Part shown: positions 11,257 to 29,718 of the stretch, piece by piece | Layout of the letters: every line of letters starts with the position of its first letter | Numbering within the stretch: position 1 is the stretch's first letter | Assembly (NCBI RefSeq): GCF_014201195.1 | Contig: NZ_JACHDS010000001.1 | Location: 4,650,001 to 4,714,000 of the forward strand | Length of the DNA stretch: 64,000 nucleotides | Direction: 5' to 3' | DNA from: Nocardiopsis mwathae | Lineage (GTDB): Bacteria > Actinomycetota > Actinomycetes > Streptosporangiales > Streptosporangiaceae | Position numbers and translations under genes: made by a program | The notes under the pieces: generated by a model | Database searches by the model: none | What the model saw: the letters and a program-made list of their open reading frames with translations, nothing else | What the model was told of the DNA's origin: nothing

Positions 11257-11982
11257 ATGGACGGACATTCCAAGCAGCTGCTGCCCCTGGACACGTCGGC
11301 CGACGCCGAGCGGTATCGGGGTCGTGTGGCGCTGCTGCCCATCGGGAGCTTCGAGCAGCACGGGCCCTACCTGCCCTCGGTCACGGACACGGTGATCGCG
11401 TGCACCATCGCCGGCGAGGTCGCCGCGGCCTACGGCGTGCAGGTGCTGCCGCCGGTGACGGTGTCCTGTTCGCACGAGCACGAGGCGTGGCCGGGGACGG
11501 TGAGCATCTCCGCGGCGACCCTCGTCGCGGTCGTACGCGACATCGCCGCGTCCGTGCGGCGCTCCGGGGCGGCGGGGCTCGTGCTGGTGAACGGGCACGG
11601 CGGGAACTACGTGCTGGGAAACGTCGTCCAGGAGGCGCGGGGGACGATGGCGCTCTTCCCCGGGCTGCACGACTGGCAGGCGGCGCGGGCGGCGGCCGGT
11701 CTGGAGACCTCTCTCGACACCGACATGCACGCCGGGGAGCTGGAGACCTCCGTCCTCCTGCACGCTCACCCGGACATGGTGCGGGAGGGGTACGCGTCCG
11801 CCGACTCCGTGGCCGATGAGCGCCCGCACCTGCTCACCCTCGGGCTGGAGGCCTACACCGGCTCCGGGGTGGTGGGGCGGCCCTCGCTCGCCTCGGCTCG
11901 CAAGGGCAAGGCGGTGCTCGCCGGCCTGGTCGAATCGTTCGCGGCGTATCCGCCGCTGTTCACCGTCCCCCGATCCCGCTGA
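11257..11982 (+). CDS. Creatininase-family amidohydrolase
   Basis: The 241-residue protein starts at ATG 11257 behind GGGAGGG. It has the family's metal-binding residues: 'GSFEQHGPYLPSVTD' (Glu33, His35, Asp44), a central 'VLVNGHGGN' loop, and 'DMHAGELETS' further on. The family includes creatininase, the mycofactocin peptidase MftE and ArfB, which deformylates the GTP cyclohydrolase product in archaeal riboflavin/F420 synthesis. Here it lies beside a GTP cyclohydrolase II homologue lacking the usual tyrosine, so an ArfB-like formamide hydrolase role is a reasonable hypothesis, not proven. It converges on, and overlaps by 130 bases, the last gene of the minus-strand operon. Confidence 0.85.
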   Translation: MDGHSKQLLPLDTSADAERYRGRVALLPIGSFEQHGPYLPSVTDTVIACTIAGEVAAAYGVQVLPPVTVSCSHEHEAWPGTVSISAATLVAVVRDIAASVRRSGAAGLVLVNGHGGNYVLGNVVQEARGTMALFPGLHDWQAARAAAGLETSLDTDMHAGELETSVLLHAHPDMVREGYASADSVADERPHLLTLGLEAYTGSGVVGRPSLASARKGKAVLAGLVESFAAYPPLFTVPRSR

Positions 11983-12974
11983 GAGTCGGGGCTCTGTCGG
12001 CGGCGGCAGAGCAGTACGGCGACGCCGGGGAGGCTCGCGGCGAGGGCGAGGACGCCGTACGCCACGGCTGTGGCCAGGCCCAGCTCGGCTCCCAGCCCCG
12101 CCGCCCCGAACGCGGCCGCCGTCACGGCCTCGCGCGGCCCCCAGCCCGCCGCGTTCATCGGTACCGCCATCGCGAGCAGGGCGAGGATGGCGGGCGGAAG
12201 GAGTTCGGGCACGGTCGCCGTGCTCCCGACGGTCCACGCGGCGACGAGGAAGAGCGCCACGTGTCCGGCGAGGACGGCCGCCGACAGGAGGATGACCGGC
12301 GGTCCGGTGTCGCGGGTGAGCAGGGCGCTGCGGGCGTCGGCGAGTAGGCCCCGCACCGAGCGCCGCCAGCGCGGCGCGCCCCTCCCCCACACCCCCCATG
12401 CCGCGACCAGTGCTGCGACCGCGACCGCGATCAGGACCGCCCAGGAGATCCCGCCCGGCGCGAGCGTCGTCCCCCGCGCGGGCACACCGATCAGCAGGGC
12501 GGCGCCGGCGGCGGCCAGGACGACCTGTCCCGCCGTCCGTTCCAGGAGCACCGCCCGGACCCCGCGGCCGAGGTCGCCGGACGAGCGCCCGTGGTCCACA
12601 GCCCTGTGGACATCACCGAGCACCCCGGTCGGGAGAACCGCGTTCAGGAGCAGCGCGCGGTAGTAGTCGGCGAGCGCCCGCCCCATCCCCAGCCGCAGCC
12701 CCAGCGCACCGGCCACGAGCCGCCACCGCCACGCGCTCAGCACGGTCGTCACGGCTCCGATCGCCAGCGCGGCCAGCAGCGCGACCGCCGAGGCCGCGCC
12801 CCCGACGGCGCCGAGTGTCCCCGCCAGGGTTTGCGTGTCGAGCCGCCAGACGAGCACGAGCAGCAGCGCCACCGCGGCCAGCGCCCGCGCCCACGGCCAG
12901 AAGGCGTCGTGGGCGATGACCTCCCGCCAGGCTCTCCGGCCCGGCCGACGTCTGCTCCGAACGGCCCTTGCCAC
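11853..12974 (-). CDS. Lysylphosphatidylglycerol-synthase-TM-type (UPF0104) membrane protein
   Basis: From GTG 12974 (preceded by GGAGGGGAAACA) the product is 373 residues with about eight hydrophobic helices. The UPF0104/LPG_synthase_TM features are present: 'RALLLNAVLPTGVLGDVHRA', 'LERTAGQVVLAAAGAAL' and the glycine-rich 'AVPMNAAGWGPREAV'. Relatives are flippase-like or associated with glycolipid and hopanoid pathways. It is the last gene of the eight-gene operon, 103 bases after the methyltransferase gene. About 43 C-terminal residues are encoded over the convergent creatininase gene and look poorly conserved, so a late stop-codon loss is possible. Confidence 0.8.
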   Translation of the reverse strand: MARAVRSRRRPGRRAWREVIAHDAFWPWARALAAVALLLVLVWRLDTQTLAGTLGAVGGAASAVALLAALAIGAVTTVLSAWRWRLVAGALGLRLGMGRALADYYRALLLNAVLPTGVLGDVHRAVDHGRSSGDLGRGVRAVLLERTAGQVVLAAAGAALLIGVPARGTTLAPGGISWAVLIAVAVAALVAAWGVWGRGAPRWRRSVRGLLADARSALLTRDTGPPVILLSAAVLAGHVALFLVAAWTVGSTATVPELLPPAILALLAMAVPMNAAGWGPREAVTAAAFGAAGLGAELGLATAVAYGVLALAASLPGVAVLLCRRRQSPDSQRDRGTVNSGGYAANDSTRPASTALPLRAEASEGRPTTPEPV

Positions 12975-13077
12975 TGTTTCCCCTCCGTTCGTCGCCGGGC
13001 GCGGATCCGCCGAACACGCGGCTACGGGGAGCGCGGAGGTGCTCCGCCCATCATCCCTCGCGGATCGTCCGCACCGC

Positions 13078-13938
13078 TCACGCCCGCGCCCCATCGCCCG
13101 GCAGTACGAGCAGGTCGATGTGGTGCACCTCGGCCCGCAGCCGACCGGACGCGCATTCGTCCTGCCTCCACTCCACATACGGATGCGCCCGGGTGGAGAG
13201 TTCAGGGCGCTGCTCGACGGCCGCGGCGACCCACCCCTCCAGCCACCGCGCCGTCAGTGCGCGCCGGTCCGGGCCGAGCCGCCACGGGCTGGCGCTCGCG
13301 TGGACGCGGGCGCCCCACTGCCGGAAGGCGCGGGTCGCGGCGGCGGGTGCGTCCGGGCCGAGAAGGCGGCGGCCGTGAACCTCCCGTCGCTGATGGTCGT
13401 CGAACGCGGCGGCGATCTCGGCGTCGAGGGGGTGGCCGGGCGTCAGCGCGACCCGGCCGGCGACCGACAGGGTCAGCAGGGCGGCGCACCCGGCACCGGC
13501 CCACGCCTCGACCAGGGCGCCCAGCTCCTCCTCGGTGAGCAGGTCGAGCAGCGCGGAGGCGGTCACCAGGTCGGCGCCGATGAGGTCGGACGCGCGCAGG
13601 TCGGCGAGGTCGGCCAGGTGGGTCTCCACGGAGACGGGCGCCCCGTCCGCCGCCGCGGCCGGTGGCGTGCCGGCGGCGTGTGCGAGCAGGTCGGCATCGC
13701 GGTCGTGGAGGACCCAGTGCTGGGGGCCGGCCAGGCGCGGGGCGAGCCAGCGCGCCATCGAACCGGTGCCGCTGCCGAGGTCCCGGACGGTCAGGTGGGC
13801 GCCGCTCCCGCGCGGTGCCGCGGGGGCGAGATGCGCGCGGAGCGCAGCCACGAGCCCCGTGTCACGCGCGTCGGCGTCGGCCTCCTCGCGCAGGGCCAGC
13901 CAGTCGGCGGCGAAGCGGGGGGATCCGGGTTCGCTCAT
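13078..13938 (-). CDS. Class I SAM-dependent methyltransferase
   Basis: The 286-residue protein has a Rossmann methyltransferase core starting near residue 48: motif I 'VRDLGSGTGSMARWLAPRL', acidic 'HWVLHDRDADLL', and 'ADLVTASALLDLLTEEEL' as motif IV. The C-terminal half ('SPWRLGPDRRALTARWLEGW') is typical of small-molecule methyltransferases. Its ATG overlaps the stop of the glycosyltransferase gene (ATGA at 13935-13938). In this cluster it presumably methylates a pathway intermediate; the acceptor cannot be read from the sequence. Confidence 0.85.
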   Translation of the reverse strand: MSEPGSPRFAADWLALREEADADARDTGLVAALRAHLAPAAPRGSGAHLTVRDLGSGTGSMARWLAPRLAGPQHWVLHDRDADLLAHAAGTPPAAAADGAPVSVETHLADLADLRASDLIGADLVTASALLDLLTEEELGALVEAWAGAGCAALLTLSVAGRVALTPGHPLDAEIAAAFDDHQRREVHGRRLLGPDAPAAATRAFRQWGARVHASASPWRLGPDRRALTARWLEGWVAAAVEQRPELSTRAHPYVEWRQDECASGRLRAEVHHIDLLVLPGDGARA

Positions 13939-15047
13939 CGGGCATCCTCACATCGCGCTCGCAGGTCGGTCGGGCCGGGTATGCGGTCGAGGACCGCGGC
14001 CATGTCCCGGGCGGTGTCCGCCCAGGGCCGCAGCCTGTCCCGGCGACGCCGCGCCGCCGACCGCAGCCGGGCGCGCAGGTCGCCGTCGACGAGCCAGCTC
14101 CGCAGGGCGCCCGCCAGGGCCCGCACGTCGTTCGGTGGGACGAGGAGCCCGGGAACGGCGCCGCCGGCCGGCTGCCCGAGGGTGTCCGGCAGGGCCCCCA
14201 CCGCGCTCGCGATGACGGGTGTGCCGCGCGCCAGCGCCTCGGTCACGACCATCCCGAAGGTCTCGGCGCGGGACGGCAGCACGAGGACGTCGGATCCCGC
14301 GTAGGCGTCCCCGAGTGCCGCGCCGCCCAGGGGTCCGGCGAAGTGGATGCGTGCCTCCAGTCCGCTTCGTGCGACCTGGCCGCGGACACGCCGCGCGTAG
14401 GCCGACTCCGGCGCGGCCGGGCCGACGCACAGGCACTCCCAGCGCAGGTCGCCGACCTCGGCGAGTGCCGGTACGAGAATGTCGTGCCCCTTGCGCGGGG
14501 TCACCGACGCGACGCAGAGGAGTCGACGGCCGCCGTCCGTGCCCGGGGCGAGCGGCGCGCCGTCGGTGCCCGGCTCCACGGTGAAGATACGGCGCGCGTC
14601 CAGGCCGTGCCGCTCGACGAGGCCGCGTACGGCCCGCGGGCTCGTGGCGATGACGGCGCTCGCGGCGCGCAGGGTGTCCCGCTCGGCGCCGTCCAGCGCC
14701 GCGGCGCGCTCAGCACTCAGCCCGGTCTCGTCGGCCAGCGGCAGGTGCACCAGCACCGCGAGCCGGAGGCGAGGGGACCGCGGAACGATGACGTCCGGGA
14801 CACCGCAGGCCACCAGCCCGTCGAGGAGCACGGTGCCGCCGTCCGGCACGGCGTCGAGTACCTGCTCCAGCCGCGCCCGGGCGGCGGCGTCCGGTTCCGG
14901 CCACGCACCGGGGATCGCCGCCTCGCGCACGGGCCGCCCCCTGCGCGCGAGTTCCCGGTGGACGCGCCGGTCGAAGACGTTTCCTCCGCTGGGGGTGGCG
15001 GGGTCGTCCACACCGCCCGGCAGGACGAAGGTGGGCACCGCCGTCAT
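13935..15047 (-). CDS. GT-B (GT4-type) glycosyltransferase
   Basis: The start is ATG 15047, which overlaps the stop of the pterin-synthase-like gene (ATGA). The 370-residue product has the GT-B bi-domain layout. The N-terminal half includes '[17 protein letters not shown]' and '[16 protein letters not shown]'. The C-terminal GT4 donor-binding domain includes '[20 protein letters not shown]', '[20 protein letters not shown]' and the E-x7-E-like '[20 protein letters not shown]'. Retaining GT4 enzymes use nucleotide sugars. The acceptor here is probably the cluster product or its lipid carrier. The open frame extends far upstream over the pterin-synthase-like gene, but that part is not coding. 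Confidence 0.9.
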
Positions 15048-15442
15048 AGTGCGCGCTCGTAGCTCGCCCAGGCGACGTGCGACTCGTGGAGCGTCACCCG
15101 GAGCTCGCTCACCCCGCGGGCCTGCTCGCCCAGCGCCCCGTTGGCCACTCGTTCGGCGATGCGGTCGGCGATGGCCTTGGCCAGGAATTCCGTGGTGGTG
15201 TTGACCCCGGCGAACTCCGGCTGTTCGTCCAGGTTCCGGTAGTTGAGGTCGGCGAGGACGGCGCCGAGTTCGCGGGTGGCCCGCCCTATGTCGACCACGA
15301 TCCCGTCGCCGTCGAGTTCCGGACGGCGGAACGAGGCGTCGACGATGAAGGTGGCCCCGTGGAGGGCCTGGGCAGGTCCGAAGACCTCGCCGCGGAAGCT
15401 GTGCGCGACCATGAGGTGGTCGCGGACGGTGACGCTGAACAA
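15044..15442 (-). CDS. 6-pyruvoyl-tetrahydropterin synthase/QueD-like protein lacking catalytic residues
   Basis: The 132-residue protein has the T-fold layout of PTPS/QueD. One zinc-ligand position is present ('AHSF', His14), but the canonical HGH motif reads HGA at 28-30. The catalytic cysteine position before it is Ala ('PAQALHGA'), and the Asp-His of the relay ('LDHxxLN') is replaced in 'LNYRNLDE'. The pterin-anchoring Glu ('TLHESHVAW', Glu120) is kept. It should bind a pterin-like ligand but not catalyse the standard reaction. From memory, the Streptomyces coelicolor homologue SCO6650 has the same losses and lies near an unusual GTP cyclohydrolase II. Overlaps the glycosyltransferase by four bases. 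Confidence 0.85.
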
Positions 15443-15478: not shown

Positions 15479-16474
15479 CTAGTCGTCGTCTTCGACGTAG
15501 GCGATCCGGTGGCACAGGGCCGGGATCCGGCCGTCGGCGAGGCGGGGCATGACCTCGGGCAGCCGTTCGAACGGGCTCTGCCCGGTGATCAGGGTGTCGA
15601 AGGCGGGGTCGGCGAGCAGGCGCAGGGCCAGGGCGAGCCGGTCGGCGAGCGACCTGCGGTGTCTGCGCGCCGGGGAGACCGCGCCCACCTGGCTCGCCCG
15701 GATCGCCAGGCGTCGGGAGTGGAAGGACTCCCCCAGCGGTATGCGGACCGCGCGGTCGCCGTACCAGCTGAGTTCGATGACCTCGCCTTCGTCGCCGAGC
15801 AGCGCCAGGGCCCGGGCGAGCCCCTCCTCGGTGGCGCTGGCATGGAACACCAGGTCGCAGTCGCCCTCGGCGTCCTCCGGGTGCTCGAACGCGACGCCGA
15901 GGCGTTCGGCGACGGCGGCGCGCTCGGGCTCGACGTCGACGAGCCGGACGCGCACGCCGGGGACGCCCGCCAGCAGGCGGGCGACGCAGCAGCCGACCAT
16001 GCCCGCCCCCACCACGGCGATGCGGTCGCCGACGAGCGGGCGGGCGTCCCACAGCGCGTTCACCGCCGTCTCGACCGTGCCCGCCAGTACGGCCCGCGCG
16101 GCGGGGACGGCGTCCGGGAGGGGGACCACGGCTCCGGCGGGGACGACGAACCTCGTCTGGTGGGGGTAGAGGGTGAAGACGTCGCGGCCGAGGAGGTCGT
16201 CGGGCCCGTGCTCGACGGTTCCCACGTTGAGGTATCCGTACTTGACCGGGCCGGGCAGATCCCCTTCCTGGAAGGGGGCCCGCATGGCCTCCCGCTGGTT
16301 CTCCGGGACGCCGCCGCGGAACACCAGGGCCTCGGTTCCGCGGCTGACCGCCGTGTAGCGGGTGCGCACGACCACCGTGCCGGGGGCCGGGTCCGGCAGC
16401 GGAACCGACCGGATCTCGCCGACTCCCGGGGACCGCAGCCAGAAGGCGCGTGCGGTGCGCTGCATACTCCCCAT
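15479..16474 (-). CDS. MDR-type (zinc-binding dehydrogenase-like) oxidoreductase
   Basis: ATG 16474 overlaps the preceding TGA by one base (TGATG), giving 331 residues. The protein has the medium-chain dehydrogenase layout: a GroES-like N-terminus ('TVVVRTRYTAVSRGTEALVF'), then a Rossmann fold with 'IAVVGAGMVGCCVARLLAG' near residue 150 and an acidic end of strand two ('LVDVEPERAAV', NAD preference). The catalytic-zinc Cys of classical members is absent ('YTAVSRGTE'), as is the four-Cys structural lobe. This resembles the BchC-like subgroup with 'SRGTE'. The likely reaction is an NAD-dependent alcohol/ketone interconversion on a cluster intermediate. Confidence 0.85.
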   Translation of the reverse strand: MGSMQRTARAFWLRSPGVGEIRSVPLPDPAPGTVVVRTRYTAVSRGTEALVFRGGVPENQREAMRAPFQEGDLPGPVKYGYLNVGTVEHGPDDLLGRDVFTLYPHQTRFVVPAGAVVPLPDAVPAARAVLAGTVETAVNALWDARPLVGDRIAVVGAGMVGCCVARLLAGVPGVRVRLVDVEPERAAVAERLGVAFEHPEDAEGDCDLVFHASATEEGLARALALLGDEGEVIELSWYGDRAVRIPLGESFHSRRLAIRASQVGAVSPARRHRRSLADRLALALRLLADPAFDTLITGQSPFERLPEVMPRLADGRIPALCHRIAYVEDDD

Positions 16475-17274
16475 CACCGGCCTCCGTCCGCGTCCGGGCC
16501 GGTGCCGGGCCGGGCCGCCCGCGTGCGCCACAGCCAGCCGATGTCGCGGCCGAAGGACCAGATCAGGAGCGCCAGCGCGCCGGCGACCAGTACCGCCGCG
16601 CCGGCGTCCGGCAGGGTGGCGGACGCGGCCGCGATGAGGGCGGCGGCCTGTGCCACCGCCACCGCCTTGCGCGGGGTGCTGGGCGGCAGGTCACCGTGCA
16701 GCCATGGCGCGGCCGTCGCAGCTGCCGCGAACGCGTAGCGCATCGCGCCGATCGCCAGCACCCACGGGCCGAGGTGGACGGCGACGTGCAGGCTGAGGAC
16801 CAGGATCAGGAAGGCGTCGACCTCCATGTCGAAGCGGGCGCCCAGCGTGCTCGCCGTGTCGGTGCGGCGCGCCACCAGGCCGTCGACGCCGTCGAGCACC
16901 AGGGCCACCGCGGCGAGCGCGACGACCAGGGCGAGCGCGGCCCCGTCCAGCGGCCGCCCGGCGATCTCCTCGGCGACCAGCGCCGTCACCCCGCCGACGA
17001 GGACGGCGCGGGCCAGCGTCACGCGGTCGGCCGGCCCCATCGCGCGGGGTCCGTCCCGGTACAGGGCTCGGGTGAGCAGTCCCCACACGGCCAGCGCGTA
17101 GGCCGCTCCGGCCGCCCAGCCGACGGTTCCCAGACCGACGGCCCCGGTGAGCATCGCCAGCAGCACCGGCTGGGCGGCGGCGCCGGCGGCGGGACCCGCC
17201 CACGCGGCCGCTGCCCCGCTGCGCATGGCCGCGGGCATGGGGACAGCGCGCACGTCACCGGATCCCATACGCAC
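16474..17274 (-). CDS. CDP-alcohol phosphatidyltransferase family membrane protein
   Basis: A multi-pass membrane enzyme of 266 residues with the diagnostic CDP-alcohol phosphotransferase motif D-x2-D-G-x2-A-R-x8-G-x3-D-x3-D, seen as 'DGVDGLVARRTDTASTLG' then 'ARFDMEVDAF' near residues 128-155. Such enzymes join a CMP-activated alcohol to a second alcohol. With an inositol-monophosphatase-like gene next to it, the alcohol may be an inositol or another polyol. The start is ATG 17274 or 17268, overlapping the IMPase stop by 14-20 bases. The stop overlaps the dehydrogenase start by one base. Confidence 0.85.
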   Translation of the reverse strand: MRMGSGDVRAVPMPAAMRSGAAAAWAGPAAGAAAQPVLLAMLTGAVGLGTVGWAAGAAYALAVWGLLTRALYRDGPRAMGPADRVTLARAVLVGGVTALVAEEIAGRPLDGAALALVVALAAVALVLDGVDGLVARRTDTASTLGARFDMEVDAFLILVLSLHVAVHLGPWVLAIGAMRYAFAAAATAAPWLHGDLPPSTPRKAVAVAQAAALIAAASATLPDAGAAVLVAGALALLIWSFGRDIGWLWRTRAARPGTGPDADGGR

Positions 17275-18079
17275 GTCTCACCTCCGCCATCAGGTAGGTG
17301 CGCAGCCCCGGCGCGAGGGCGATCGTCGCCGAGGAGTCCACCGAGTGCGGGCTGCCGTCGCGGTCGACGACATCCCCTCCCGCCTCTCTGACCAGCAGTA
17401 CCCCGGCCGCCGTGTCCCACGGCAGGTTGGCCAGGATGACCGTGCCGTCGAGCCTGCCGTGTGCGGTCCACGCGAGGTCGATGGCGGCCGCTCCGAGCAT
17501 GCGGACCCGGCGTACCCGCGCGCCCAGCCGGTCCAGCAGGTCGAGCCGCACCCGGTTCCGCGCCGCGGCGCCTTCCCCCACGGCGAAGTCGCCGATGGAG
17601 ACCACGGCGTCGGTGGGGGCGTCCGAACCCGGGACGTGGATGCGTTCGCCGCCGCAGAAGGCGCCCTTGCCCGCGACGGCCGTGTACTCGGCGCCGAGGA
17701 AGGGCAGGTCGATCGCCGCGAGCGCAGCCCGAGCCCCGGACACCAACCCGAGGGAGACGGCGCACAGCGGGATTCCGCAGGCGAGGTTGGCGGTGCCGTC
17801 GACCGGATCGAGCACCCACCAGGGCTGCTCGTCCGCCGTGCCCCCGCTGCGGCCGTGCTCCTCCCCGAGGAAGCCGACCTCCGGGGTCTCGCGCGCCAGG
17901 AACGAGCGAACCGCCTCCTCCACGGCGAGGTCGACGTCGGTCACGACATCGCGGTCGCCCTTGGTGCCGACCGACCGGGGGGCGTGCTCCCGCACGATCC
18001 CGCGGGCGATCGCCACGGCCTGGCGGGCGACGGGCAGCAGGTCGGCGTAGTCGGGGCCGGTGCCCGCCGGATCAGCCAC
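17255..18079 (-). CDS. Inositol-monophosphatase-family protein
   Basis: GTG 18079 gives 274 residues and overlaps the end of the cyclohydrolase gene by 8 bases. The Li+-sensitive phosphatase motifs are all present: 'DVVTDVDLAVEE', 'GFLGEEHG', the metal-binding 'WWVLDPVDGTANLACGIPLC' and 'LPWDTAAGVLLVREAGG'. These bind Mg2+ and hydrolyse sugar or inositol monophosphates. In this operon it may dephosphorylate an inositol phosphate or a ribosylamino-pyrimidine phosphate. The catalytic residues look intact. Confidence 0.9.
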   Translation of the reverse strand: MADPAGTGPDYADLLPVARQAVAIARGIVREHAPRSVGTKGDRDVVTDVDLAVEEAVRSFLARETPEVGFLGEEHGRSGGTADEQPWWVLDPVDGTANLACGIPLCAVSLGLVSGARAALAAIDLPFLGAEYTAVAGKGAFCGGERIHVPGSDAPTDAVVSIGDFAVGEGAAARNRVRLDLLDRLGARVRRVRMLGAAAIDLAWTAHGRLDGTVILANLPWDTAAGVLLVREAGGDVVDRDGSPHSVDSSATIALAPGLRTYLMAEVRRAYGIR

Positions 18080-18761
18080 GTCCGCCGCCCGTCCGGCCCG
18101 GGGCGACTCCGTCGTGCGAAGGCGCGGCGGGTGTGGTCCGCACCGCCTCGATGTGGGGGAGGTCGTGCCCGAGCCGGTCGCGCTTGGCGGTGAGGTAGGC
18201 GATGTTGCCCGGGTGCGCGGGGGCGAGGAGCGGGACCCGCTCGGCCACCCGGACCCCGTGGGCCTCCAGGGCGTCGACCTTGTCCGAGTTGTTGGACATG
18301 AGCCGCACCGAGTCGACGCCGAGGTAGCGCAGTACCCGGGCGGCCGGCCCATAGTCGCGGACGTCGACCGGCAGGCCGAGCGAGGTGGCCGAATCGATGG
18401 TGTCCAGCCCCTGCTCGTCCTGGAGGATGTGCGTGCGCACCTTGGCGACCAGCCCGATCCCGCGGCCCTCGTGGCCGCGCAGGTAGACCAGGATTCCGGA
18501 TCCCTCGCGGACGATGGTGTCCAGCGCCGACGCCAGCTGTTCACCGCACTCGCAGCGCGTCGCACCGAAGATGTCACCGGACAGGCACTCGGAATGCACC
18601 CGCACCAGCACGTCCTCGCCGCCGACGGCCGCGCCGAACACGAGCGCCATGTGTTCGTGGCCGTCGATCGGGTCGCGGAAGGCGACGGCTCGAAACATGC
18701 CGCGCCGGGTGGTCAGGTCGGACTCGGCGACATCCGTGAGACCGGTGTCCTGATCAGGCAT
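18072..18761 (-). CDS. ribA: GTP cyclohydrolase II homologue with His in place of the catalytic Tyr
   Basis: ATG 18761 (behind GGGGGGAAG) gives 229 residues. The zinc site 'HSECLSGDIFGATRCECG' (Cys59, Cys70, Cys72) and 'GHEGRGIGL' are intact. Where E. coli RibA has 'KIRAYALQD' with catalytic Tyr105, this protein has 'KVRTHILQD' (His111). From memory, a Tyr-to-Met change at this site in S. coelicolor SCO6655 stops the reaction at the formylated pyrimidine (FAPy) instead of the riboflavin precursor. There is no partner DHBP synthase domain and no other rib gene nearby, so a role outside riboflavin synthesis is likely. First gene of the eight-gene operon. Confidence 0.85.
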   Translation of the reverse strand: MPDQDTGLTDVAESDLTTRRGMFRAVAFRDPIDGHEHMALVFGAAVGGEDVLVRVHSECLSGDIFGATRCECGEQLASALDTIVREGSGILVYLRGHEGRGIGLVAKVRTHILQDEQGLDTIDSATSLGLPVDVRDYGPAARVLRYLGVDSVRLMSNNSDKVDALEAHGVRVAERVPLLAPAHPGNIAYLTAKRDRLGHDLPHIEAVRTTPAAPSHDGVAPGRTGGGRG

Positions 18762-18962: not shown

Positions 18963-19814
18963 ATGGCCGGGGACCCCCCGATCGCGACGGGTGTGACGCG
19001 GCGACGCCGCCGGCTCACCGACCAGGAGACCGAGCAGCGTATGCTCCAGGCCGCCGTCGACCAGGTCAACAGCGCCGGGCTGACCGTCAGCCTGGAGCAC
19101 ATCAGCTTCGAGGACGTGATCCGGGACGCGGGGGTGTCGCGCAGCGCCGTCTACCGCCGCTGGCCCTACAAGGACCTGTTCTTCAGCGACCTGCTCAAGG
19201 AGCTCGCGCGCGGCACCAGCCCGGCCATCGTCGAGGAGGACCCCGAGGCCCGGCGCGCGGTCGACCGGACCATCCTCGACCGCGTGGACTGGCTGAGGAC
19301 GCCGTCGCTGCGCGTCGCGCTGGCCGCGGAGATCCTGCGCCACGGCGCCCCGGTGGAACTGCGGACCTTCCTGCACTCCCCGGAATGGCGCACCTACCTC
19401 GCGCTGCACGCGACCTTCCTGAGCCTGCCCGAGGGAGAGCTCCGCGGCGAGGTCCAGGCGGCCCTCACCGAGTCGGAGCGCAACGTCACCGCGGGGCTCG
19501 CCGCCGCCTACGAACGCGTGGCGTCCCTACTGGGCCTGCGCATGCGCCCGGAGCTGGCGAGCGGGTTCGAGACGCTGGCGACGCTCGCCAACGCCATGGT
19601 GCGCGGGCTGGTCGTGATGGCCCCGACCACCCCCGCCCTGTCCGAGGAGACGATCCAGGCCGACCTGTTCGGAGCCCCGGCCCCCGCGGAGTGGACGCTT
19701 CCCGCGCTGGCGCTCGGCGCGCTCGCCGCGTCCTTCCTCGAAGCGGACCCCGACGTCGTGTTCGACGACGACCGCATCGCGGAGGTCCGGCGCGCCCTCG
19801 CCCGCGGCGAGTGA
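18963..19814 (+). CDS. TetR/AcrR-family transcriptional regulator
   Basis: The 283-residue protein is long for the family. The N-terminal HTH spans about residues 20-70: 'TEQRMLQAAVDQVNSAGLTV', 'SFEDVIRDAGVSRSAVYRRW' and 'PYKDLFFSDLLKELA', the TetR signature. The ligand domain is all-helical. It is divergent from the GTP cyclohydrolase-led operon across a 200-base gap with an AT-rich candidate operator, so repression of that operon is the natural hypothesis. The start ATG 18963 follows GGAAGGTG. A strong terminator follows the stop. Confidence 0.9.
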   Translation: MAGDPPIATGVTRRRRRLTDQETEQRMLQAAVDQVNSAGLTVSLEHISFEDVIRDAGVSRSAVYRRWPYKDLFFSDLLKELARGTSPAIVEEDPEARRAVDRTILDRVDWLRTPSLRVALAAEILRHGAPVELRTFLHSPEWRTYLALHATFLSLPEGELRGEVQAALTESERNVTAGLAAAYERVASLLGLRMRPELASGFETLATLANAMVRGLVVMAPTTPALSEETIQADLFGAPAPAEWTLPALALGALAASFLEADPDVVFDDDRIAEVRRALARGE

Positions 19815-24152: not shown

Positions 24153-25493
24153 CTAGGCGGCGGTGATGGAGTCGATCAGGTCGAACAGGCCCACCGCCCA
24201 GGCCACCGCGGCGCACAGGGCGATGACGACGACGATCTCCACCCCGTTGATGACGCGCCGCAGCGAGGCGCGGGGGACGTCCGCCAGACGGATCCAGCTC
24301 AGCACGGAGACCGCGACCCCGATGGCCAGGGCGATCGCCGGGATCCACGGGCCCAGGGCCGGCAGCGGCTTCATCGAGCCCATCAGCGTGATCCCCAGCC
24401 CGATCACGCCCCCCAGGCGCAGCGGCAGCACGTGGCTGATCCTGTCGAACAGCCGGGAGCGCAGGATCAGCAGCAGCGACAGCAGGGCGGCCAGCAGGAC
24501 GTCGGGCAGGCCGCGGCCCATGAAGACCAGGAGCGGGACGGCGGCCACCGCGCTGACGGCGAAGCCCAGCACCGCGCCCAGCAGCAGCCGGTCACTGGCG
24601 GTCAGGCTCTCCTCGAAGCGTTCGCCGTCGACCTGGCCGGAGTGGCGCACCTCGTAGTCCAGGCCCGACAGCCCGCCCATCGCCAACGCCATCCGGGGCA
24701 GCGCGCCCACACCGAGCACCAGCAGCACCGCCAGCGCGCGCACGCCCTGCGCACCGTCGATGAACATGCCGACGGCGCTGATGACCCCGCCCGACACGGT
24801 GACCACGGCGAGCGCCGCCAGGTAGGACAGGCCCAGCTCGTCGATCATCCAGCCGATCCCGGCGATGAGCAGCGCGCCCACGCTCCCGAAGGCCGCCAGC
24901 ACCAGGAACTGCGCGTTCGGGCTGACCACGTACACCGCGAGCATGCCGGTGGCCGCACCCCACGCGCACGCCGTCCCGAAGAGGACGTGGCCGACTCCGG
25001 CCATCTCCCGGCGGCTCGCGAACAGCACCAGTGCAAGTGTGTACAGCGCGCCGATCCCGGCGATCGCTAGGTTGCCGGGGGCAGGGCGGACGTAGGTCAT
25101 GATGCCCAGCACGACCAGCGGGCCGATGGCGGCCAGCAGCATCCCGAACGCGAACGTCGTGGAGGAGCGCCAGAACCGGGCGGTGTCGTCGATCTCGTCC
25201 TCGACGGCGCCGCGCACGTCGTCGATGTGGGCGGGGCGGCCGCGCGCGCTCACCCTGTCGAGCAACAGGACGTCGCCGTCGGCGATCCCCGCGCTCTCCA
25301 GGGACGCCTCGGGGTGGATCTCGTCGCCGTCGCCGGTGGTCAGCGTCCACCCGGCGGGCTCGGTGCCCTCGGTGTCGGGGGACACCACCCGGACCACCTG
25401 CGGGAGGAGGGTCGCCACCGGAACCGTCCCGGGAAGGGCGAGGTCGGCCCAGCGCTGCGGCCCCGTGACCGTCACCCGGCAGTATCCGCTCAC
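24153..25493 (-). CDS. eccD: Type VII secretion integral membrane protein EccD
   Basis: The 446-residue protein has the EccD layout: an N-terminal ubiquitin-like domain ('YCRVTVTGPQRWADLALPG', 'GIADGDVLLLDR', about 1-85) followed by eleven or so transmembrane helices from residue 110 on. EccD forms the membrane channel core of ESX/T7SS complexes with EccB, EccC and EccE. Here it is divergent from eccC across a 150-base gap. No eccB, eccE or mycosin gene is visible beside it. Confidence 0.9.
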   Translation of the reverse strand: MSGYCRVTVTGPQRWADLALPGTVPVATLLPQVVRVVSPDTEGTEPAGWTLTTGDGDEIHPEASLESAGIADGDVLLLDRVSARGRPAHIDDVRGAVEDEIDDTARFWRSSTTFAFGMLLAAIGPLVVLGIMTYVRPAPGNLAIAGIGALYTLALVLFASRREMAGVGHVLFGTACAWGAATGMLAVYVVSPNAQFLVLAAFGSVGALLIAGIGWMIDELGLSYLAALAVVTVSGGVISAVGMFIDGAQGVRALAVLLVLGVGALPRMALAMGGLSGLDYEVRHSGQVDGERFEESLTASDRLLLGAVLGFAVSAVAAVPLLVFMGRGLPDVLLAALLSLLLILRSRLFDRISHVLPLRLGGVIGLGITLMGSMKPLPALGPWIPAIALAIGVAVSVLSWIRLADVPRASLRRVINGVEIVVVIALCAAVAWAVGLFDLIDSITAA

Positions 25494-25644
25494 GTCCGTG
25501 TTTTCCCTCGTGATCGTGGTGGTTCGCGTGCTTTCGCGGGGGTGCCCGCCCCCAGCGCCCGATTAGGCGATTCCATCCGGTTGCGGGATCATTACCGTAG
25601 CAACCTCACACTCCTCTTTCCTCAGGTGCACCGGAGAGATCGCC

Positions 25645-28600
25645 TTGGCGACCACGCTTGTCCACCGCCCCGCACGCCACTCCGTCCCCGCCCCCGGTTC
25701 CGATCCCCTCGTCATCGCGGCGCCGCCGCAGCTGCCGGACAACCCCCCGGCCACCAGCTCCATGGCGATGATGATCATGCCGGTGATCAGCGGGTCGGGG
25801 TCGCTGCTGATGGCGATCACGATGGGCAACCGCCCGCTGTACGCGGCCGCCGCGATGCTCGTCATGCTGGCCAGCGTCGCCGTGGGCGTCACCATGTTCC
25901 TCGCCCAGTACAACGGGCCGCGCAAGCGGATCCGCGAGCAGCGCGAACGCTACCTCGACTACCTCGACCAGCTACGCGAGACCGTGCGGGACGTGGCCGC
26001 GACCCAGCGCAAGGGCAGCGCGTTCCGGCACCCGGCCCCGCACCTGCTGACCGAACCGGCGCGGCTGCCGGCCCGCCGGTGGGAGCGGCGCGCCTCCGAC
26101 CCCGACTTCCTGCACCTGCGCGCGGGCACCGGCACCCGGCCGCTGGCCCGGCCGCTGAGCCTCAAGGTGGACGCCTCCAACCCTCTGGTCGTCTACGACC
26201 CGGTGTGCCAGGGACTCGCCGACCAACTCGTCGAGCTCTACGCCCAGGTTCCCGAGGAGCCGCTGGTGGTGCCGCTGCGCGAGCTCGGCGTCGTCTCGGT
26301 CATCGGCGACCGGGCGGCGGGCCGCGCCCTGGCCCGCTCGCTCATCGCCCAGCTCGCCACCTTCTCCGCGCCCGAGGACGTCCGGGTGGGGGTCGTGCGG
26401 CACTCCCGCCTCCTGCCCGAGTGGGACTGGCTGAAATGGCTGCCGCACAACGCCCACGACGAGATCACCGACGGTCCGCTTCCGGCGCGCCTGGTCGCCG
26501 GCAACACCGTGGAGATGGCGGAGCTGCTGGCGACCGAGATCGAGCAGCGCACCATCGACATGCAGCGCCGCCGCGGGCGCCCGCCCGGCCCGGGAACACA
26601 GCGACTGGTGCTCGTCGTCGACGGCGAGTTCCAGGCGACCCTGTCGGGGCTGTCCGCCGAACCGCCCGTCACCTCCCTGGCCGACCTGGGCATCCACCTG
26701 ATCATGCTGCTGGGTGAGCGCCGCGAGGAACCCGAGCACGTCGACATGCGGCTGTACGTGGACGCCGACGGCGAGCTCAGCGAGGACACCGGGGACGGCG
26801 CCCCGTCCGGCGCGGCCCAGGGGACGGCCGGGGAGTCCGACTGCCCGCGCACCCCCCTCAAGGGGACGGCCGACCGGGCGAGCGTCGCACTGCTGACCTC
26901 GCTGTCGCGCATCCTGTCACCGATGCGGCTGGCCGCGACCGACGGCGCCGACGTCCTGCACACCACCGTCGACCTGCCGGAGATCCTCGGTGTTCCCGAC
27001 GTGGCGCAGCTCGACGCGCGGCACACCTGGCGGCCCCGCAGCACCAACGACTACCTGCGGGTCCCCATCGGCGTCGGCCCCTCGGGGAACCTGGTGCTGC
27101 TGGACCTCAAGGAGTCGGCGTTCGGCGGCATGGGCCCGCACGGCCTCGTCGTGGGCGCCACCGGGTCGGGCAAGTCGGAGATGCTGCGGACCATGGTGGC
27201 CTCCCTGGTCATCAACCACTCCCCCGACCACCTCGCGCTGCTCCTGGTCGACTTCAAGGGCGGTGCGACGTTCGCCGACACCGACCGCCTCCCGCACAGC
27301 GCCGGGCTCATCACCAACCTCGCCGACGACGACACCCTGGTCGCCCGCTTCCGCGAGGCCATGTACGGCGAGCTCACCCGCCGCCAGCAGCTCCTCAAGG
27401 ACGCCGGCAACCTACCCAACCTGCACGCCTACGAGGCGCTGCGCGAGCAGCGGCCCGACCTGGACCCGCTGCCGCACCTGCTGGTCATCATCGACGAGTT
27501 CTCCGAGCTGCTCACCGCCCACCCCGACTTCGCCGAGCTGTTCGTGGCGATCGGGCGCATCGGCCGGTCCATCGGCGTGCACCTGCTGCTGGCCACCCAG
27601 CGCCTGGAGTCCGGCAAGATCAAGGGGCTGGAGTCGCACCTGTCCTACCGCATCGGCCTGCGCACCTTCTCCGAGGCCGAGAGCCGCGAGGCCATCGGCG
27701 TGGGCGACGCCTATCACCTGCCCCCCGAACCCGGCTCGGGCTACCTCAAGGTCGACACCTCCGTCTTCGAGCGCTTCAAGGCCGCCATGGTGTCGGGGCC
27801 CTACATCCCGCCCGCGGAGGCCACCAGCGACGACGACCCGGTGCTGCCGGTGATCTCCTACAACGCGGTCGGGTCGCTGCTGGGCCTGTCCGACCTCGTG
27901 GGCGGCGACGGGGAGGAGGAGTCGGGCGGCTCCGGCTCCTCGACCCGCAGCGTGCTGCAGGTGGCGGTGGACCGGCTGGTGGCGGCCGGGGCCGAGCCGG
28001 TGCGGCCGGTGTGGCTGCCGCCGCTGCCCGCGGCGCTCACCCTGGACGCCCTGTTCGAGCGGGTGGAGAACGAGGAGGCGGCCGCAGGCGGCGACGCGGA
28101 CACCGCGAGGCGGGGCGGCGCCCGGCAGGGCGCCCCCGCCGAACCGGACCCCGCCGAGATGTGCGCCTACATCGGCCTCACCGACATCCCGCGCGAGCAG
28201 CGCCAAGAGCCGACGGGGCTCGACTTCACCGGCGCCGACAGCAACATCGTCGTGCTCGGCGGCCCGCAGACGGGCAAGTCGACGCTGCTGCGCACCATGA
28301 TCGCGAGCCTGGCCTGGCGGTACCCGCCCGGCCGGGTGGCGATCTACGCGGTCGACTTCGGCGGCGGCGGGCTGGCCGCCCTGGAGGGCCTGCCGCACGT
28401 GGCGGGCGTGGCCGGGCGGTCCGACCCCGAGCGGGTGCAGCGCATCCTCTCCGACGTGTCCAACCAGCTCGACCAGCGCGAGCAGGTGTTCCGGAGTGTG
28501 GGCCTGGACTCCCCGGCGGGGCTGCGCCGGGCGCGCGCCCAGGGGAAGGTACCCCGCGGTATCGCCGGCGACGTGTTCCTGATGATCGACGGCTGGTCGT

Positions 28601-29718
28601 CGGTGCGGGAGAACTTCGAGGACGCCGACGACGTGCTGCTCGACATCGTCACCCGCGGCCCGTCCCTGGGCGTGCACACGATCCTCACCGGCGCGGCGAG
28701 CTCGCAGATCCGCAGCAAGCTCGCGGCGTTCTTCGGCGGCCGCATCGAGCTGCGGCTGACCGACCCCTTCGATTCGGGCATCGGCCGCAAGATCGCCGAG
28801 GAGATCCCCAAGGACGTCCCCGGTCGGGCGCTGCTGTCCGACGAGAACATGGCGCACATCGCGCTGCCGCGGGTGGACGGCGTCGCCGACGACACCGACC
28901 TCGGCGAGGGCGTGCGCGACCTGGTCGCCCGGGTCGGCGAGCGGTGGACCGAGCGGGCGGTCCAGCAGGTCCGCACGCTGCCGGACCGCGTCGAGCTGGA
29001 CGAGCTGACCGGCATGCACGACGGCCCGGAGCTCATCCTCGGCATGGCGGAGCGGACGCTGGAGCCGGCGCTGCTGTCGCTGGCGGAGGAGCCGCACCTG
29101 ATGGTGTTCGGCGACCCGCAGACGGGCAAGAGCACGCTGCTGCGCGGCCTGCTGCGGCAGCTCACCCGGCGCCCGCCGGAGGAGGTCGGCATCGTGCTGG
29201 TCGACTTCAAGCGCGCCCACCTCGACGTGGTCGGCGAGGAGCACATGCTCGCCTACTGCACCGAGCCGCAGTTCACCCAGCAGATCGCCACCCAGCTGGC
29301 CGGGTCGGTCAAGGAGCGCCTGCCCGGCCCCGACATCACCCCGCAGCAGCTGCGGGAGCGCAGCTGGTGGAAGGGGCTGGAGCTGTTCGTGGTCGTCGAC
29401 GACCTCGACCTGATCAGCAACCGGCAGGGCAATCCGCTGGCGCCGCTGGCCCAGTACATCCCGCAGGGCGCCGACCTCGGCCTGCACCTGATCGTGGCCC
29501 GCCGCACGGGCGGCGCCGGCCGCGCGCTCTTCGAGCCGATCCCCCAGGCGCTGACCGACGCGGCCACCACGGGCGTCCTGTTCTCCGGCGACCGTATGGA
29601 GGGCCGCCTGGCCAACGGCGTCGCCTCCCGCCCGCTACCGCAGGGCCGCGCCCTCCTGGCCCGCCGCGGCCAGCGCCCCGAACAGCTCCAGGCCCCGTGG
29701 AGCGACCCGCCGGAGTAG
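25645..29718 (+). CDS. eccC: Type VII secretion FtsK/SpoIIIE-type ATPase EccC
   Basis: The 1357-residue protein carries an N-terminal membrane hairpin (about residues 45-85), a cytoplasmic DUF domain, then three ATPase domains. Walker A motifs are 'GATGSGKSEM' near 503, 'GGPQTGKSTLL' near 872 and 'GDPQTGKSTLL' near 1156. Matching Walker B strands are 'LLVIIDEFSELL', 'VFLMIDGWSSV' and 'LFVVVDDLDLIS'. EccCa and EccCb are fused in one chain, as in most actinomycete systems. It recognises WXG100-type substrates and powers export; candidate substrates are encoded at 54.9-58 kb. All three P-loops look intact. Confidence 0.97.
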   Translation: MATTLVHRPARHSVPAPGSDPLVIAAPPQLPDNPPATSSMAMMIMPVISGSGSLLMAITMGNRPLYAAAAMLVMLASVAVGVTMFLAQYNGPRKRIREQRERYLDYLDQLRETVRDVAATQRKGSAFRHPAPHLLTEPARLPARRWERRASDPDFLHLRAGTGTRPLARPLSLKVDASNPLVVYDPVCQGLADQLVELYAQVPEEPLVVPLRELGVVSVIGDRAAGRALARSLIAQLATFSAPEDVRVGVVRHSRLLPEWDWLKWLPHNAHDEITDGPLPARLVAGNTVEMAELLATEIEQRTIDMQRRRGRPPGPGTQRLVLVVDGEFQATLSGLSAEPPVTSLADLGIHLIMLLGERREEPEHVDMRLYVDADGELSEDTGDGAPSGAAQGTAGESDCPRTPLKGTADRASVALLTSLSRILSPMRLAATDGADVLHTTVDLPEILGVPDVAQLDARHTWRPRSTNDYLRVPIGVGPSGNLVLLDLKESAFGGMGPHGLVVGATGSGKSEMLRTMVASLVINHSPDHLALLLVDFKGGATFADTDRLPHSAGLITNLADDDTLVARFREAMYGELTRRQQLLKDAGNLPNLHAYEALREQRPDLDPLPHLLVIIDEFSELLTAHPDFAELFVAIGRIGRSIGVHLLLATQRLESGKIKGLESHLSYRIGLRTFSEAESREAIGVGDAYHLPPEPGSGYLKVDTSVFERFKAAMVSGPYIPPAEATSDDDPVLPVISYNAVGSLLGLSDLVGGDGEEESGGSGSSTRSVLQVAVDRLVAAGAEPVRPVWLPPLPAALTLDALFERVENEEAAAGGDADTARRGGARQGAPAEPDPAEMCAYIGLTDIPREQRQEPTGLDFTGADSNIVVLGGPQTGKSTLLRTMIASLAWRYPPGRVAIYAVDFGGGGLAALEGLPHVAGVAGRSDPERVQRILSDVSNQLDQREQVFRSVGLDSPAGLRRARAQGKVPRGIAGDVFLMIDGWSSVRENFEDADDVLLDIVTRGPSLGVHTILTGAASSQIRSKLAAFFGGRIELRLTDPFDSGIGRKIAEEIPKDVPGRALLSDENMAHIALPRVDGVADDTDLGEGVRDLVARVGERWTERAVQQVRTLPDRVELDELTGMHDGPELILGMAERTLEPALLSLAEEPHLMVFGDPQTGKSTLLRGLLRQLTRRPPEEVGIVLVDFKRAHLDVVGEEHMLAYCTEPQFTQQIATQLAGSVKERLPGPDITPQQLRERSWWKGLELFVVVDDLDLISNRQGNPLAPLAQYIPQGADLGLHLIVARRTGGAGRALFEPIPQALTDAATTGVLFSGDRMEGRLANGVASRPLPQGRALLARRGQRPEQLQAPWSDPPE

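Follow-up and report, generated by a model that had tools for sequence, protein, structure and literature searches.

A GTP cyclohydrolase II (GCH II) paralogue in the window, by which we mean the whole 64,000-nucleotide stretch of Nocardiopsis mwathae DNA under analysis, carries histidine in place of a catalytic tyrosine, raising the questions of what such an enzyme makes and why it is kept. Spoonamore and colleagues are said to have found in 2006 that SCO6655, a Streptomyces coelicolor protein with Met at this switch site, makes 2-amino-5-formylamino-6-ribosylamino-4(3H)-pyrimidinone 5'-phosphate (FAPy), and a Met-to-Tyr change in SCO6655 reportedly restores 2,5-diamino-6-ribosylamino-4(3H)-pyrimidinone 5'-phosphate (APy). 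The original prediction, made from this DNA alone, had read the substitution as a sign of altered chemistry rather than decay. In canonical GCH II, FAPy is an intermediate from which the same enzyme removes the formyl group (PMC9478397).

A GCH II with histidine at the switch site

The gene and its two distinguishing sites lie on the minus strand of the window:

18072..18761, minus strand: GCH II paralogue of 229 amino acids, non-Tyr type with His111 (PF00925, E=5.6e-60; aligned to 2bz0)
18429..18431, minus strand: CAC, the codon of His111, which corresponds to Tyr105 in E. coli (sequence and alignment)
18546..18587, minus strand: zinc-ligand region C59 ... C70-E-C72 (translation and conservation survey)

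The translation of the open reading frame at 18072-18761 (minus strand) contains the motif KVRTHILQDEQG, and residue 111 (H) aligns with Tyr105 of E. coli RibA in the solved structure 2bz0. Codon 18429-18431 thus bears out the claim of a Tyr-to-His change within 18396-18440, and the description of three zinc cysteines and a GHEGRGIGL loop as intact was likewise accurate: Cys59/70/72, RGHEGRGIGL (95-104), Asp133 and Arg135 are all kept in the translation and alignment.

Membership of the fold family is clear, with a PF00925 score of 202.1 bits against a cut-off of 23.3. Measured against a canonical, APy-forming RibA, the window GCH II has the three zinc cysteines and the Asp/Arg catalytic pair but carries His111 where E. 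coli has Tyr105; its score with TIGR00505, the ribA equivalog-domain model, is 195.6 bits, below the cut-off of 205.85. Both marks of the SCO6655 type are present, namely a switch site occupied by a residue other than Tyr and a cluster with a homologue of SCO6650, a 6-pyruvoyltetrahydropterin synthase (PTPS), and by switch residue and cluster, clade aside, its sequence places the window enzyme with SCO6655-type proteins. A second GCH II copy in the same genome is of the housekeeping type and has Tyr (G000:C1:2926152-2926745), which, together with the cluster context, rules out housekeeping RibA as the main role of the window GCH II.

The surrounding gene cluster

The neighbouring genes assigned to the cluster are:

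11257..11982, plus strand: creatininase-family protein, proposed FAPy formamide hydrolase (PF02633, E=3.2e-62)
11853..13178, minus strand: flippase-like membrane protein, LPG_synthase_TM (PF03706)
13078..13938, minus strand: SAM methyltransferase (PF13649)
13935..15047, minus strand: family 4 glycosyltransferase, GT4 (PF00534; conserved neighbour)
15044..15442, minus strand: PTPS homologue, SCO6650 orthologue (PDB 3d7j, E=1e-65, full length; PF01242)
15479..16531, minus strand: zinc-type alcohol dehydrogenase-like protein (conserved neighbour; family scores are weak, and the start is possibly internal)
16474..17274, minus strand: CDP-alcohol phosphatidyltransferase-like membrane protein (PF01066; conserved neighbour)
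17255..18082, minus strand: inositol monophosphatase-family (IMPase) protein (PF00459; in some clusters of the window's type, type A, only)
18963..19814, plus strand: probable regulator of TetR/AcrR type, transcribed divergently from GCH II (weak NCBIfam matches only)

The full-length match of the PTPS to SCO6650 (3d7j) makes this a cluster of the SCO6655 type; by locus numbering, SCO6655 would adjoin SCO6650 in S. coelicolor. An annotated Streptomyces fungicidicus plasmid holds the same genes, with the creatininase adjoining a Met GCH II, and the regulator at 18963-19814 is kept beside GCH II in several close relatives. The creatininase-family frame is open from 11029, the Met start at 11257 being our choice. 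Its product scores 38.9 bits with the ArfB model NF033501 (cut-off 180) and 135.3 bits with the MftE model TIGR03964 (cut-off 172), and it also falls below the cut-off of the creatininase model; MftE is the closest model, and family therefore does not give the substrate. A literature search of limited scope found nothing on the product of the cluster. By eye, the window also contains, at 24153-29718, an EccD-like membrane protein (24153-25493, minus strand) and a 1357-residue EccC/FtsK-like ATPase frame (25645-29718, plus strand), which suggests that a type VII secretion locus adjoins the cluster.

Absence of tyrosine at site 111 among relatives

When 396 actinobacterial genomes were searched by pattern, the 150 GCH II sites among the matches listed, with residues counted by eye, comprised 143 with Tyr, six with Met (all third Streptomyces copies) and one with His, the window's own. 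No His was found in the sampled housekeeping GCH II copies, and the original prediction, against which a common His in bona fide RibA enzymes would have spoken, is favoured by this predominance of Tyr. Within the cluster-encoded GCH II clade (Actinomadura, Nocardiopsis, Amycolatopsis and others), His is the usual state and Tyr never occurs; relatives more than ~64% identical to the window GCH II have His, Met, Leu or Gln, with Ile found in a later set. Met occupies the site in a second group, 52-59% identical, whose members come from Streptomyces, from Actinophytocola and from part of the genomes in the window's own family. The original prediction named Met for SCO6655, which agrees with the Met of all sampled Streptomyces cluster copies.

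Read directly from 95 distinct non-Tyr sequences, site 111 is His in 50, Met in 30, Leu in 10, Gln in four and Ile in one, and the zinc, loop and catalytic positions other than 111 are kept throughout. Pairwise dN/dS inside the non-Tyr groups is 0.08-0.22, and these retained residues and low ratios therefore argue against decay. The same ratios, together with 57 fetched loci that encode His (including some repeats of one place), rule out a sequencing or decay artefact, and the 57 loci also dispose of a mutation private to the N. mwathae genome. Flanked by zinc cysteines 70 and 72, Glu71 (codon 18549-18551) is shared by all 95 non-Tyr sequences, and 119 of the 126 sequences with Tyr carry Asp there, making Glu71 a possible second specificity residue.

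Since Met, Leu, Gln or Ile replace His in orthologues from the same cluster, His has no special standing; what matters is the absence of Tyr, not the presence of His. The original prediction of altered chemistry rather than decay is supported by purifying selection, by 111 being the sole catalytic residue changed and by a dedicated creatininase gene. No support was obtained for the idea of His as a special or new kind of catalytic residue. By analogy with SCO6655, the alteration is most likely loss of the deformylation step rather than a new reaction.

Pairing of non-Tyr GCH II with a creatininase gene

The element added here is an all-or-none pairing, observed directly, of non-Tyr GCH II with a creatininase gene, counted as close when its product is >50% identical to the window's. 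The first sample came from a PTPS gene search, blind to the GCH II residue, in 395 genomes of the class (57 positive), taking 20 kb around most PTPS matches, together with 18-kb relative loci that were found by GCH II itself and are therefore uninformative on how common His is. Here the close creatininase was present with 69 of 70 non-Tyr GCH II, one of the 69 (G476) being counted on a creatininase 16 kb away, and with 0/12 Tyr clusters and 0/12 clusters having no GCH II. Locus L156 (Leu, creatininase absent in 20 kb) was considered as an exception and rejected, as a 66% identical creatininase lies 16 kb away. The second set, another family (f37) and genus g46, was chosen after the rule was seen and leaves out 14 further g46 loci; it gave 8/9 for non-Tyr, 0/36 for Tyr and 0/15 for no GCH II.

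Taken together, in clusters sampled mainly by the PTPS gene, the two sets show the creatininase in 77/79 non-Tyr clusters, 0/48 Tyr clusters and 0/27 without GCH II (0/75 for these other clusters), in a tally that counts related loci many times. In both exceptions (L054 and L330) a contig end cuts the locus short, and several of the loci scored as having no GCH II are also short contigs. A genome-wide search of the first-sample genomes with Tyr or GCH-less clusters found no close creatininase elsewhere (best 42% identity), and the GCH II copies read in these genomes are all Tyr.

Gene order is comparable across the two states, L149 reading ...LPG-GCHII(Tyr) and L128 ...LPG-creatininase-GCHII(Met). 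Inside the creatininase-bearing lineage, L142/L150 and L169 have neither gene and retain the core cluster as well as a Tyr copy of RibBA type, a paired absence that fits a pair supplying only APy and dispensable when APy comes from elsewhere. The Tyr copies in sampled clusters are mostly of a third type (KLDAYALQD), which in Streptomyces is also present as a separate copy. Tyr and non-Tyr clusters have in common a core of PTPS, dehydrogenase, glycosyltransferase, methyltransferase, CDP-alcohol transferase and flippase. A RibD-like reductase occurs in 34/36 Tyr clusters of the second set versus four non-Tyr loci in all, and four Streptomyces loci hold Met GCH II, creatininase and RibD-like gene together; given this unevenness, the two cluster types may differ beyond how APy is made. 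Archaeal-type RibD_C reductases act on APy (cf. the name of TIGR01508), and the spread of the RibD-like gene suggests that APy is a branch point, while its unevenness also leaves room for different products.

Type A GCH II (the window's) and type B (from Streptomyces and others) each form one clade, the window GCH II falling in a well-supported clade separate from the Streptomyces/Actinophytocola type, and a single common A+B clade is neither established nor rejected (AU p=0.44). Independent evolutionary contrasts number two on supported branches and three on the best tree, the cluster tree being the result of a quick search; the trait needs three changes on this tree, so that the sign test, which is not significant, is without power.

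Proposed pathway and alternatives

In the pathway that we propose, the cluster GCH II would open the imidazole ring of GTP in a zinc-dependent reaction, with loss of pyrophosphate, and would stop at FAPy because the formate-releasing Tyr is missing, His111 being, like Met, Leu, Gln and Ile, no substitute. The creatininase-family protein would then remove the formyl group of FAPy, and the resulting APy would feed the PTPS/dehydrogenase/glycosyltransferase/methyltransferase pathway. We infer both catalytic assignments, and consider it probable that non-Tyr GCH II stops at FAPy and that the creatininase-like protein deformylates FAPy to APy. With somewhat less assurance, we lean towards a broader reading in which one widespread cluster alternates between two sources of one precursor, either a Tyr GCH II or a Tyr-less GCH II with a dedicated creatininase-family deformylase, following one ancient Tyr loss or two parallel ones; Tyr-less GCH II would then be the bacterial counterpart of archaeal GTP cyclohydrolase III.

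The presence of a RibD-like reductase in most Tyr-type clusters and its absence from most non-Tyr clusters, together with the varied substrates of creatininase family members, could instead be explained if FAPy itself were the needed intermediate, the creatininase-like protein acting later or elsewhere and Tyr-type clusters making a different product. This account is unlikely, however, in view of the core from PTPS to flippase common to both types, the four loci that combine non-Tyr GCH II, creatininase and RibD-like genes, and the existence of some clusters without GCH II and creatininase, for which Tyr-type copies at other places in the genome are the only source.

A further possibility is that His111 takes over the role of Tyr, leaving the window enzyme an ordinary APy-making GCH II; His is able to act as a proton donor, and no other residue is found as often in the window's clade. 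Nevertheless, Met, Leu, Gln or Ile stand at the site in close relatives, His occurs in none of the sampled housekeeping copies, and the creatininase accompanies His members exactly as it does Met, Leu, Gln and Ile members, all of which make such a takeover quite improbable. The Tyr-bearing housekeeping-type copy in the genome would also permit the window protein to be a decaying pseudoenzyme or a redundant RibA copy, an idea that is scarcely credible against invariant zinc and catalytic residues, dN/dS of 0.08-0.22 and a conserved cluster.

For the preferred route through FAPy and a separate deformylase, the strict pairing gives the creatininase gene a candidate function. It also yields a sequence rule for re-annotating actinobacterial 'ribA' genes (a residue other than Tyr at site 111, Glu71 and a creatininase gene within the cluster), and those that fit the rule are unlikely to serve riboflavin.

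Related cores elsewhere

The dehydrogenase-PTPS core, with glycosyltransferase and/or methyltransferase, was also seen on plasmids of Agrobacterium, Rhizobium, Methylosinus, Thiodictyon and a Rhodobacteraceae strain (L261, CP048471.1 9131-16233; L264; L266; L267; L269), each with a RibD-like gene and with no annotated creatininase nearby; the GCH II of the Agrobacterium plasmid core has Tyr. A haloarchaeal version (dehydrogenase, PTPS, GT4) on a Haloarcula sinaiiensis plasmid (L265, 1210-10332) lies near a CDP-alcohol transferase and a creatininase-family gene that is 31% identical to that of the window. Streptomyces linear plasmids (L262, L263, L270) carry, outside the cluster, a close PTPS copy (67-73% identical) with cupin, MBL-fold and, on two of three, MEKHLA-domain genes in its vicinity.

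Comparison with known systems

The window GCH II belongs to the fold family of RibBA/RibA of riboflavin biosynthesis and differs from them in a single catalytic residue; those enzymes have Tyr as the switch residue, the residue between their zinc cysteines is mostly Asp, and their gene context is another. SCO6655 shares with the window GCH II an orthologous cluster, a non-Tyr switch residue and the same creatininase in the cluster, but has Met rather than His, and the window protein is only 52-59% identical to the Streptomyces/Actinophytocola type.

BrbF of Sinorhizobium and Brucella, a creatininase-family protein assayed as a FAPy formamidase (PMC9478397), is a bacterial FAPy deformylase that we liken to the window creatininase by family only. 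Its FAPy-supplying partner is still missing (PMC9478397), and a degenerate GCH II would be one candidate kind of partner; for rhizobia themselves this finds no support, the Sinorhizobium, Rhizobium and Agrobacterium copies read all having Tyr. Although the first enzyme of the window is a modified GCH II rather than ArfA (GTP cyclohydrolase III), and its creatininase scores below the ArfB cut-off, archaeal ArfA and ArfB likewise use two proteins for the conversion of GTP to FAPy to APy that we propose for the window pair, ArfB being, as proposed for the window cluster, a second enzyme of the creatininase family.
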